Shown: piece after piece, positions 1 through 59,837 of the stretch | Position numbering within the stretch: position 1 is the stretch's first letter | Layout of the letters: each line of letters begins with the position of its first letter | Notes under the pieces: model-generated | The model's input: the letters and a program-made list of their open reading frames with translations, nothing else | Database searches by the model: none | What the model was told of the DNA's origin: nothing | Source: Candidatus Gastranaerophilales bacterium | GTDB taxonomy: Bacteria; Cyanobacteriota; Vampirovibrionia; Gastranaerophilales; Gastranaerophilaceae | Assembly (NCBI GenBank): GCA_944326465.1 | Contig: CALVEB010000012.1 | Coordinates: 1-59,837 of the forward strand | Direction: 5' to 3' | DNA: 59,837 nucleotides | Made by a program: the position numbers and the translations under genes

Positions 1-423
1 ACTGACTTTGCTGCAAATACAGCAATAAATACATGTGATGACACAACATACGACCCAAATGGTTCAGCAAATTCATATTGTGCAAATAATTATTGGGCAG
101 GAGCAATAAAAGCATGTAAAGATAAAGGCATGGAATTACCGACGAGAGCCCAATTGGCACAATTAGCAAGCAATCTATACGTAGATAGCAGCGGCAATGA
201 AGTAACAATAGGAGCGAACGAAAACAAAAGTAACCTAAAAGTAAAGGACGAATACAAAGATAACCCTCCACTTACTCTTGGCTACGACTACTGGTCCAGT
301 GAGGAGTACGGTGCGAATAACGCGTACCACCGGTACTTCCGCACTTCCTACACGTACGGCAATGACACTGGCTGGAACGCCAAGGACAGCAGCCGCCGCC
401 GCGCTATATGTGTGTCGAACTAA
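1..423 (+). CDS. Pilin-like DGR target protein, 3' part (variable C-terminal FISUMP/DUF1566-like domain)
   Basis: The reading frame is open from the first base of the window to the TAA at 421-423, so the N-terminus lies outside. The visible 140 residues match the C-terminal half of the complete paralogue at 57600-58712: a Cys-containing stretch (CANNYWAGA, ACKDKGMELPT), then AQLAQLASNLY, and finally YWSSEE...RAICVSN. This resembles FISUMP/DUF1566 (C-type-lectin-like) tails. The last 45 codons are a variable repeat of the DGR template at 10073-10208. By homology the missing part should carry a type IV prepilin leader, making this a surface or pilus protein. The tail is probably the ligand-binding face; the ligand is unknown. 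Confidence is high for the target role and lower for the pilin nature, because the N-terminus is not seen. Confidence 0.88.
   Translation, partial: TDFAANTAINTCDDTTYDPNGSANSYCANNYWAGAIKACKDKGMELPTRAQLAQLASNLYVDSSGNEVTIGANENKSNLKVKDEYKDNPPLTLGYDYWSSEEYGANNAYHRYFRTSYTYGNDTGWNAKDSSRRRAICVSN
276..411 (+). repeat. DGR variable repeat VR1
   Basis: This segment aligns without gaps to the template repeat at 10073-10208 (minus strand), 136 bp each. I count 21 differences, and every one falls on an adenine of the template: for example AAC becomes GAC, TAC, CAC, CGC, GGC, GCC or AGC. No non-A position differs. Most changes hit asparagine codons, so residues vary while the scaffold (YWSSEE, RAIC) stays fixed. 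Adenine-specific change is the hallmark of DGR mutagenic retrohoming. Confidence 0.96.
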
Positions 424-9486: not shown

Positions 9487-9858
9487 TTAAACACTTCCTG
9501 CTGCATTCTCAGCAACAACCGACATTGCTGCCAGCCACCCCTGAGACTGCTTGGCAATGGAAGAAGTTTTTTCTATAAAAGCGCAGTAACGCGCCTGGGG
9601 CAAAATTCTTAAATCAAATGATATTCGTAAAAACAAATTAAGGAACTGAACATGCTCCTGTATGGACAAAATAAATTCTTTCTTGTCCTTTGCACTGTTT
9701 GCACGATATATATCAACGAGGAGATCAACAATATGAAGCTGTATCTTTTCACCCAGCGAAAACTTGAACTCTCTCGGAAAATCTTTTGTTGAATGCATAA
9801 GCTCCAGCAGTAAATCGTATGTTGTTTTATAAATAGGTAAGTGATGATATTGTGCCAT
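9487..9858 (-). CDS. avd: DGR accessory variability determinant (Avd)
   Basis: A protein of 123 residues that matches the Avd pattern: HLPIYKTTYDLLLEL at the start, FPREFKFSLGEKI (~29-41), then VDLLVDIYRANSA (~48) and an amphipathic C-terminal helix ending SQGWLAAM. In DGRs Avd is a pentameric four-helix-bundle protein that binds the reverse transcriptase and template RNA and is needed for mutagenic cDNA synthesis. It lies about 210 bp downstream of the template repeat on the same strand. The ATG has tgggga upstream. The related 23S-rRNA-IVS (S23) family shares the fold, but the adjacent template decides for Avd. No reverse transcriptase gene accompanies it. Confidence 0.9.
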   Translation of the reverse strand: MAQYHHLPIYKTTYDLLLELMHSTKDFPREFKFSLGEKIQLHIVDLLVDIYRANSAKDKKEFILSIQEHVQFLNLFLRISFDLRILPQARYCAFIEKTSSIAKQSQGWLAAMSVVAENAAGSV

Positions 9859-10072: not shown

Positions 10073-10208
10073 ACATATAGCGCGGTTGTTGCTGTTGTTC
10101 TTGTTGTTCCAGTTATTGTCATTGCCGTTCGTGTTGGAAGTGTTGAAGTTCCGGTTGTACGCGTTATTCGCATTGTTCTCCTCACTGGACCAGTAGTTGT
10201 AGCCAAGA
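10073..10208 (-). repeat. DGR template repeat (TR)
   Basis: A 136-bp adenine-rich segment (minus strand) that reads as the C-terminal codons of the pilin-like targets but with 19 Asn codons (for example SSEENNANNAYN, WNNKNNSNN). It contains 52 A. VR1 and VR2 each differ from it at 21 sites, all A. Because most are AAY codons, random change at A gives NNY codons and never a stop; the one AAG (Lys) codon is the exception. No start codon, leader or complete domain surrounds it, so it is a template and not a gene. It ends in cgcgctatatgt, shared with the VRs, and then diverges (initiation-of-homing boundary). Confidence 0.96.
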
Positions 10209-57043: not shown

Positions 57044-57440
57044 GTACGAAGGCGGACACAGTCCGGCAGGCTAGCCTGGCAGACACAGTCTGGTGGACAC
57101 AGTCCACTCTTATACACAGGAGACCCGCTAAGTCCTATCAGTAGCTGCTATATTTACCTCTCCAAGGGGGAGGAAAAGAATTTGTTAGCGAATGAAATGA
57201 GCTTACAAATTCTAGGTGGGGGTCAAATGTGCGCGTCCCACCAATCGCGTTACACTCCCTCACACCTTGGGGAGAGGGTAGAATTTCTTAGTGAGCTTTG
57301 CGAGCTTAGAAATTCGGGTGAGGGGTCCTTGGAATTCTTCAAAGTCCCGCTTTGACCCCTCATCCGGCCTCCGGCCACCTTCCCCCCAAGGGGGGAAGGT
57401 ATATAGCGGGTTCCGTTACAACTTAGCGGGTGTCCAGATA
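57044..57440. repeat. Mosaic intergenic repeat region C
   Basis: A collection of the same micro-units as regions A and B: ggcaggctagcctgg, ggacacagtcc, cctctccaagggggagg, gaggggtc and a G/C-rich palindrome (ccttccccccaaggg). It resembles a derived copy of the family. No gene is supported. Confidence 0.6.
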
Positions 57441-57574: not shown

Positions 57575-57609
57575 TTCGAACTAAGAGGCTTTGGGCCTCT
57601 TAGTTCGAA
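57575..57609 (-). repeat. Perfect stem-loop after VR2
   Basis: The 15-bp arms ttcgaactaagaggc / gcctcttagttcgaa with a 5-nt loop include the stop codon, equivalent to the VR1 hairpin with a different loop. It is just past the variable repeat on the coding strand, the expected place for a DGR homing hairpin. Confidence 0.8.
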
Positions 57610-58712
57610 ACACATATAGCGCGGAGGCCGCTGGTGTTCTTGTAGTACCAGCGATTGTCATTGCCGTCCGTGCGGGAAGCGCCGAAGCCCCGGTAGTACG
57701 CGGTATTCGCATTGTCCTCCTCACTGGACCAGTAGCTGTAGCCAAGAGTAAGTGGAGGATTATCTTTGTATTCGTCCTTTACTTTGAGTCCTGATTTATC
57801 TTCGTTGTATGCTATCTCTACTTCATTGCCGCTGCTATCTACGTAAAGATTGCTTGCTAGTTGTGCTAGTTGGGCTCTCGTAGGAAGTTCCATGCCTTTC
57901 TCTTGACAGCTTAATTTAGCACCTGCCCAATAGTTTGTAGAGCAATTACTTCCATGGTTTTGTTCCATATCTTCATATTCGCTGCCAGCGCAGGTATCTA
58001 TTGCGCGGTTTGCTTGGAATTCCGTTGACCAGCACATGTCACCTATCGGGTTATCGCAAGTGGAAAAGGCAACGCCTGAAGATAATTCAATATCTTTACC
58101 AACTCTATTCGGGCCTTTCTTTCCGTTTACATCTACCATGTATGCCATGCAAGATACTTGTGAACCTGTATCCTCTATTGGATCAGCATAAGGGCATTCC
58201 GGCTGGTATGCCATAATTACTGTTGTACCGTCTGCAACCACAAAGCTCATGGTATTTGTGTTAGTTTGCCATTCCTTTAATCCCATGCTTGATGCGGAAG
58301 TTAGAGTTTCTGTTTCTATGTCAAGAGGCGCATCGTCTTTACCTGTTGTTACGATTTTAGGTGAATAGCATTTGTTGATGTCATCCTTGTCGCATGTCTT
58401 AATAACTTTCATGTAGTTTTTGAAAGTATTCATGAAATCCTCAGTAGAATTGTGACCGGTCATGACACCGTCTACGTTCATGCGTCGGACGGTTTCCGTG
58501 AGTTTCTTTTCCCAGAGGTCTTTCGCAGTTTTCCATGCTGTCTCATTGTGGTTCTGGATAAGACCCGGTAATGTAAGTGCGGCAACGATGCCGATAACCG
58601 CAAGGGTGATGAGGACTTCGGCGAGAGTGAATGCTGCTTTAGCGGTCTCCAGAGTGTTGGTGCAGACCAGCCTGTCTTCAGCGAAAGTAAAAGCTAATTT
58701 GTAATTTGTCAT
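57600..58712 (-). CDS. Type IV pilin-like DGR target protein (complete)
   Basis: A protein of 370 residues. The start at 58712 (MTNYKLAFTF) is fixed by ggaggt 7 nt upstream; the longer frame starts on the RBS itself. Residues 28-50 (FTLAEVLITLAVIGIVAAL) form a class III prepilin N-terminal helix with Glu32 at position +5, so peptidase should cut at A27/F28. A helical middle region follows, then a Cys-rich FISUMP/DUF1566-like C-terminal domain ending in VR2. The first 27 residues contain a second, imperfect AFTFAE motif, as if a 60-nt piece had been inserted. The protein probably sits on a pilus or the cell surface. Divergent from the XRE gene. Confidence 0.9.
   Translation of the reverse strand: MTNYKLAFTFAEDRLVCTNTLETAKAAFTLAEVLITLAVIGIVAALTLPGLIQNHNETAWKTAKDLWEKKLTETVRRMNVDGVMTGHNSTEDFMNTFKNYMKVIKTCDKDDINKCYSPKIVTTGKDDAPLDIETETLTSASSMGLKEWQTNTNTMSFVVADGTTVIMAYQPECPYADPIEDTGSQVSCMAYMVDVNGKKGPNRVGKDIELSSGVAFSTCDNPIGDMCWSTEFQANRAIDTCAGSEYEDMEQNHGSNCSTNYWAGAKLSCQEKGMELPTRAQLAQLASNLYVDSSGNEVEIAYNEDKSGLKVKDEYKDNPPLTLGYSYWSSEEDNANTAYYRGFGASRTDGNDNRWYYKNTSGLRAICVSN
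57612..57747 (-). repeat. DGR variable repeat VR2
   Basis: A gap-free alignment to the template repeat (10073-10208) over 136 bp. I count 21 differences, all at template adenines (for example AAC to GAC, TAC, CGC, GGC, CTC and AGC; ACT to GCT). It differs from VR1 at many of the same codons, so the two targets carry separate rewrites. Confidence 0.96.
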
Positions 58713-58734
58713 AATCCTTACCTCCAATAATACT

Positions 58735-59094: not shown

Positions 59095-59250
59095 TCTTGC
59101 GGGTGTCGTTGCCTTGCGGGTGGACACAGTCCACTCTTACATACTGGATGCCCGTTAACTTTAGCGGGTGTACAGTGTATAAGAGCAGACTTCGTCTGCC
59201 CCGCAAGGTAACAATGCCCGCTTGACGCAAACATTCCCGTTGCGGGATGA
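59095..59250. repeat. Mosaic intergenic repeat region D
   Basis: Shares tgccttgcgg, ggtggacacagtccac, gcagacttcgtctgc and gcaaggtaacaatgcc with region A, including the stretch near 600-690 in the same order. It contains the short 40-bp element copy at 59140-59180. No gene is supported. Confidence 0.65.
59140..59180. repeat. Short derivative of the 79-bp palindromic element
   Basis: catactggatgcccg followed by gcgggtgtacagtgta: the same ends as at 1002 and 22002, with the interior deleted to about 40 bp. Confidence 0.55.
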
Positions 59251-59325: not shown

Positions 59326-59348
59326 AACTAAGGGCTATGCCCTTAGTT
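59326..59348 (-). repeat. Stem-loop after VR3
   Basis: A 10-bp perfect stem (aactaagggc / gcccttagtt) with a 3-nt loop at the stop codon. It is shorter than the VR1 and VR2 hairpins and lies at the same place. Confidence 0.7.
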
Positions 59349-59837
59349 CGAAACACATATAGCGCGGAGGTTGCTGAGGTTCTTGTTGGTTTTGTACCAG
59401 TAACTGACCGTAGTGGACAAGAGCCGCCTGTACGCGCGATTTGCATCGACCTCCTCACTGGACCAGTAGGGGTAAGGAAGAGTAAGGGGAGGGTTAGCTT
59501 TGTATTCGTCCTTTACTTTTAGGCCTGAGTCTATTGTTTCGTTCGCACCTATGGTTATCTCTGTGCCGTCACTCTTTACATATAATTCACTCGCTAGTTG
59601 CGCCAGTTGGGCTCCTGTTGGTAATTCCATACCTTTATCCTTACACGCTTTTATCGCTCCTGCCCAGTAATTGGTTGAACAAAATTGATTATCTGTACCA
59701 TGTTTATCATATGTTGTATCACTACAGGTATCTATTGCAGTATTAGCAACAAAGTCAGTACTCCAGCACATGTCACCTATCGGGTTATCGCAAGTGGAAA
59801 AGGCTACACCTGAAGATAATTCAATATCTTTGCCAAC
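59343..59837 (-). CDS. Pilin-like DGR target protein, third copy (5' truncated by window)
   Basis: The frame is open to the window edge, where it begins VGKDIELSSGVAF on the minus strand, matching residues of the complete copy. The C-terminal FISUMP/DUF1566-like region includes CWSTDFVANTAIDTC, GMELPTGAQLAQLASELY and YWSSEEVDANRAY...RAICVSN. The tail carries VR3. Similar length and order to the other copies show a recently expanded target family. The prepilin leader lies outside. Confidence 0.88.
   Translation of the reverse strand, partial: VGKDIELSSGVAFSTCDNPIGDMCWSTDFVANTAIDTCSDTTYDKHGTDNQFCSTNYWAGAIKACKDKGMELPTGAQLAQLASELYVKSDGTEITIGANETIDSGLKVKDEYKANPPLTLPYPYWSSEEVDANRAYRRLLSTTVSYWYKTNKNLSNLRAICVSN
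59355..59480 (-). repeat. DGR variable repeat VR3 (not from the visible template)
   Basis: The first ~20 bp (cgcggaggttgctg...) and the codons YWSSEE...RAIC align with VR1 and VR2. The middle differs in length and at non-adenine bases, so the visible template cannot have produced it. The segment nearest the stop (aag-aac-ctc-agc-aac-ctc) differs from the template only at A positions, as expected if a second template with the same frame exists. Confidence 0.75.

Follow-up and report, generated by a model that had tools for sequence, protein, structure and literature searches.

The window, the whole stretch of DNA analysed here (59,837 nucleotides), is contig C12 of a Gastranaerophilales genome of 2.07 Mb in 52 contigs that is 99.73% complete. 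Its relevant features, and two on other contigs, are as follows.

1-423, plus strand: VR1 target ORF, a paralog of the VR2 and VR3 genes.
289-411, plus strand: VR1, a long-class variable repeat made from TR1 (against TR1, 20 mismatches at A, 0 non-A, 0 gaps).
9487-9858, minus strand: gene for the accessory protein Avd, beside TR1 (bAvd, E 8.8e-13; "Avd protein of DGR", E 1.5e-22).
10073-10195, minus strand: TR1, 123 nt, the long template visible in the window, which fits VR1 and VR2 and does not fit VR3.
57600-58727, minus strand: VR2 target gene, complete, with a prepilin N-terminal motif (TIGR02532, E 1e-4).
57612-57734, minus strand: VR2, long class, made from TR1 (against TR1, 20 mismatches at A, 0 non-A, 0 gaps).
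59326-59348, minus strand: inverted repeat spanning the stop codon, AACTAAGGGC-ATA-GCCCTTAGTT, with a 10-bp stem and an ATA loop.
59343-59837, minus strand: VR3 target gene, the C-terminal 164 codons of a pilin-like paralog, open at the contig end.
59355-59468, minus strand: VR3 core, short class, 114 nt (against the reconstructed template TR-B, 19 mismatches at A, 4 non-A, 0 gaps).
Contig C9, 49540-50670: DGR-type RT, 377 aa (best solved-structure match 8ub7, E 6.8e-40; GLPIGNLTSQ motif).
Contig C19, locus L073, 2-1330: second DGR module, with a target end (..LAVCLGD), Avd2 at 687-1058 and an A-rich template, TR2, at about 1165-1320.

The structural match of the C9 RT, 8ub7, is presumably the BPP-1 DGR RT. 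The sole other RT gene in the genome, on C49, is Drt2-like and was ruled out as the DGR RT; it (locus L072:2609-4036, minus strand) matches a Drt2-like defence RT at 360 bits, slightly below the NCBIfam cut-off, and its neighbours are an IS481-like transposase and a probable ATPase. No RT lies near TR1 and Avd on C12, and the C19 module, which also has none, would need the C9 RT in trans. Judged by the RT, Avd, the A-directed differences between templates and variable repeats (VRs) and the hairpin, the system is a DGR. With the RT, the TR/Avd modules and most targets on different contigs, its parts are unlinked.

The targets are pilin-like paralogs, about 35 of which carry a VR in this genome. 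VR1, VR2 and eight further VRs differ from TR1 only at A and require no gaps. In a look for a C-type lectin fold of the target variable domain, no Pfam domain except N_methyl and no PDB relative was found for the VR2 protein, and its predicted structure has a mean pLDDT of 39, too low to assign a fold. VR paralogs sit at many contig ends, and many assembly breaks fall within this gene family. The last 77 nt of the window (59761-59837) recur, reverse-complemented, as the end of C24, and C39 contains them internally; this overlap of C12, C24 and C39 is an assembly branch within the repeated gene family.

An earlier note on this DNA described VR3 as a third variable repeat that shares its hairpin and RAICVSN end with VR1 and VR2 and differs from the visible template in length and at non-A sites, with A-only differences near the stop. 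These observations are borne out. The VR3 gene product ends YWSSEEVDANRAYRRLLSTTVSYWYKTNKNLSNLRAICVSN, and its C-terminal ..LRAICVSN* is that of VR1 and VR2. The VR3 core has 114 nt against 123 nt in TR1, VR1 and VR2, that is, three codons less, and its alignment to TR1 needs 21 gap columns and leaves 4 non-A mismatches. From codon AAG through the Cys codon before the stop, every difference between VR3 and TR1 falls at a template A. VR3 is thus a real VR, though one of the genome's many and not the third.

Stems of at least 8 bp occur at the stop-codon site in 26 of the 32 sequences examined, against 0.4% of shuffles, and their sequences differ between genes in matched pairs. By analogy, this inverted repeat resembles the target-recognition hairpin of DGRs. 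Homing in Bordetella phage BPP-1 needs an inverted repeat at the target stop codon or immediately past it, the stem sequence of which may vary (PMC3240598). The position is shared with the VRs studied here, although the role of the hairpin is known only from BPP-1; the stems seen here are mostly of 10-15 bp with loops of 3-5 nt. The usual stop-codon hairpin is missing from some VRs that, as in the template flank, end in CTCGGGAG(C/A)TAA (L017, at the left end of C8; L006, on C41; and L104, L107, L109 and L111 in genome G003).

VR3 belongs to a set of seven VRs, here called class B, at separate loci on seven contigs (VR3, C32, C24, C13, C14, C29 and C10-middle; VRs made from TR1 are class A). 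We reconstructed from them a 114-nt, A-rich template, TR-B, with the sequence TACTGGTCCAGTGAGGAGAACAATGCGAATAACGCGTACAATCGGAACTTCAACACTACGAACAGTAACTGGAACAACAACAACAAGAACAACAGCAACAACCGCGCTATATGT, which encodes YWSSEENNANNAYNRNFNTTNSNWNNNNKNNSNNRAIC. For class-B VRs, TR-B scores 17-34 units better than TR1 and leaves 0-4 non-A mismatches, and the 114-nt members fit it without gaps. VR3 is the most diverged of these: 4 non-A changes in its core are private to it, and a GGC-to-CCT codon change lies just upstream of the core; 19 of its 23 differences from the full TR-B are at A. The C9 paralog has the 114-nt register and was left out of class B (10 non-A mismatches to TR-B). TR2 was ruled out as the source of VR3, as it encodes IWSGQESDG..NELAVCLGD, of another family.

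TR-B was first drafted by eye from the aligned VRs, and a fixed rule applied to five VRs agrees with that draft at 112 of 114 sites; the rule sets variable columns to A and is partly circular, only the controls are independent, and TR-B is reconstructed, not observed. As positive controls, the rule returned TR1 at 123/123 sites from 12 class-A VRs and at a mean of 121.3/123 sites from five class-A VRs drawn at random. When VR3 was excluded from the inference, 19 of its 26 differences fell at a predicted A (p = 9e-5). The 495-nt VR3 region also matches a paralog at E 1.6e-111, and the two results together exclude chance.

Real templates in the short 114-nt register are present in other genomes of the family, three of them within Avd-TR-RT cassettes (G001, G042 and G191). 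These cassettes, from the same genus or family, share with TR-B the register and the columns that hold Asn codons. The ends of their templates are of the LAVCLG/QAVCLG type, in contrast to RAICVSN, and Avd, TR and RT lie together there. At the 27 columns without a 4/5 class-B majority, the real templates carry A at 25 (G042), 26 (G191), 25 (G001), 23 (G282) and 23 (G077) sites; at the remaining 87 columns, the same five carry A at only 13-19. The sequence evidence strongly supports the second template of the same family posited in the earlier note: it can be rebuilt, and its predicted A sites match real templates elsewhere. The absent template is predictable nearly to the base.

The template itself was not found. 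A TR-B query against the genome returned TR1 (86%) and VRs only, the template tail with three mismatches allowed returned TR1 and three VRs, and the A-rich relative of VR3 that the earlier note expected is thus missing from the assembly. The tail pattern revealed no TR-B in the family's 382 other genomes; matches in G003, G001, G092, G309 and G364 were VRs or unrelated sequence. A further hit, L178 in G092, is a long-class VR and no template. Full-length searches of 306 genomes, exact-pattern searches of GTDB and searches of phage and plasmid records did not find TR-B. Exact patterns had two matches in IMG/VR, of which L142 was examined and rejected as TR-B, being a template beside an RT elsewhere with generic likeness only. 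The absence of TR-B from the genome comes from a 52-contig assembly with many breaks in this family and is not proof.

Third codon positions, which hardly ever hold an A in these templates, were used as an inference-free clock for the age of class B. Five class-B VRs contain 11 third-position minority letters, whereas the 792 five-member class-A sets have 0.8 on average and never more than 2; the VRs of G003 are intermediate (mean, 5.2). The non-A load is likewise higher (10/335 in class B versus 3/888 in class A; p = 2.7e-4). As leave-one-out inference is noisy when only four VRs are used (class-A non-A counts of 0-7), the case for staleness rests on the third-position count. The greater drift fits copies that are no longer refreshed; the extra variety could instead mean that the short template had several alleles from which class B came.

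We read VR3 as a leftover of DGR mutagenic retrohoming from the short template TR-B, which has since been lost or displaced in use by TR1, with a probability of about 0.7. TR-B would have been transcribed and copied by the DGR RT with errors at A, and at the stop-codon hairpin the cDNA would have overwritten, in trans, the ends of seven or more pilin-like genes at unlinked loci. Later, TR-B would have been lost, or the long TR1 would have taken over in use, and the class-B ends may have been drifting, unrefreshed, since then. The sequences themselves show the common register, the restriction of differences to A, the scattered origin of class B, the lack of TR-B in the assembly and the older-looking drift; we infer that TR-B was transcribed and reverse-transcribed, that the C9 RT did so, and that the template was lost. 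The earlier note offered a diverged, inactive copy as its fallback; the data favour a middle reading, in which VR3 was made from TR-B and the template is probably gone.

TR-B might still be in the cell or population and be absent from the assembly, on an unbinned contig, a mobile element or a strain variant, with VR3 still diversifying; we consider this unlikely. There is precedent in DGR 7 of Thiohalocapsa PB-PSB1, where the reference lacks a matching TR and long reads show it in rarer structural variants (PMC10907252). In G003, of the same genus, about 33 VRs of the family are present, some without any non-A change, and no RT, Avd or TR was found in the 97%-complete genome, which suggests that DGR machinery may be missed by assemblies. 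The left VR of C32 also looks fresh, with no non-A mismatch to TR-B. However, our genome is nearly complete, with TR1, the RT and both Avd modules assembled, an assembly built on 77-base overlaps should not break at a 114-nt template whose flanks are unique, and class B is stale relative to class A. TR-B is probably lost, not hidden.

A gene tree was built on the VR-free upstream region of the targets. Class B requires seven changes for its seven rows, and a single class-B clade is rejected (AU p = 9e-5); the VR3 gene lacks firm placement. The scatter of class B on this tree argues that TR-B acted in trans on separate genes. One could take class B for a normal subfamily of paralogs that never had its own template and spread as genes were duplicated or as one variable end converted another, since the paralogs are many and similar and C30a and C30b are nearly identical to each other. 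This is very improbable: duplication of a single ancestral gene does not explain a class that is no clade outside the VR, and VR-to-VR copying would pass on mutated letters, whereas each class-B VR bears its own set at A sites. Horizontal acquisition of a VR3 gene whose end was already written in another species with a short template is just as hard to credit. Short-class VRs do occur in G003, and a long-class VR of the family with a hairpin lies in G092, of a different genus (G092:C20:28241, locus L178), which suggests transfer of a target gene. Several separate imports would be needed, however, and starred branches pair at least two class-B genes with resident class-A genes (C29 with C16, C10-middle with VR2). 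That VR3 is a TR1 product with a later deletion and drift, as its TR1-like ends and mostly A-only differences could suggest, can be dismissed, for six other unlinked VRs agree with VR3 in their short register and in their middle part, real short-register templates exist in relatives, and the shared register and scattered gene tree contradict it.

The VRs of G003 point to a third template. They rebuild TR-C, identical to TR1 at 115/123 sites, and a few VRs of our genome (C6, C43 and C41) fit TR-C better than TR1. A short template was rebuilt poorly from only four G003 VRs, matching TR-B at 98/114 sites and leaving as many as 8 non-A mismatches in a VR, and it serves solely to show that the short class exists there. 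The simplest picture we can infer is that the targets stayed in place while their templates turned over. We give even odds to the fuller version, in which the roughly 35 dispersed pilin-like targets were kept while the template was exchanged and three or more templates have left their record in one genome: TR1, still resident, TR-B, now missing, and TR-C, rebuilt from the sister species. If the turnover reading is true, extinct templates could be read from the genes they wrote.

Among the papers searched, none on a DGR in Gastranaerophilales or Melainabacteria was found. The principle of a leftover VR from a lost template is already known from Treponema denticola SP32, in which the VR of a remote target (HMPREF9732_00892) fits the template of another isolate, and not its own, with 19/21 differences at A; its authors interpreted it as the leftover of a lost DGR (PMC4891356). 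VR3 likewise does not match its own genome's template. The Treponema case concerns a single gene, and its former template is found in other isolates; in our genome, seven genes at unlinked loci together yield a template that has not been observed. New here are a class of seven in one genome, from which an absent template can be reconstructed and checked, and the separation of RT, templates and targets. Thiohalocapsa PB-PSB1 likewise has VRs without a matching TR, and the targets of its DGRs 2, 4 and 5 are diversified in trans; its targets are sensors of conflict systems and not pilin-like proteins (PMC10907252). Remote variable proteins of cyanobacterial DGRs are also many dispersed paralogs with 3'-terminal VRs and distant DGR parts, although tied to the genome's DGR cassette (PMC7517822).

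The usual description of a DGR is a single cassette that has one template and serves one target or a few. In this genome, an RT, a template and about 35 targets can sit apart, the histories of template and targets are separable, and template turnover leaves a record; VRs without a matching template should not be dismissed as false positives. Near the target genes, intergenic repeats around GGTGGACACAGTCCACTC occur in the window at 57092-57131 and 59119-59158.
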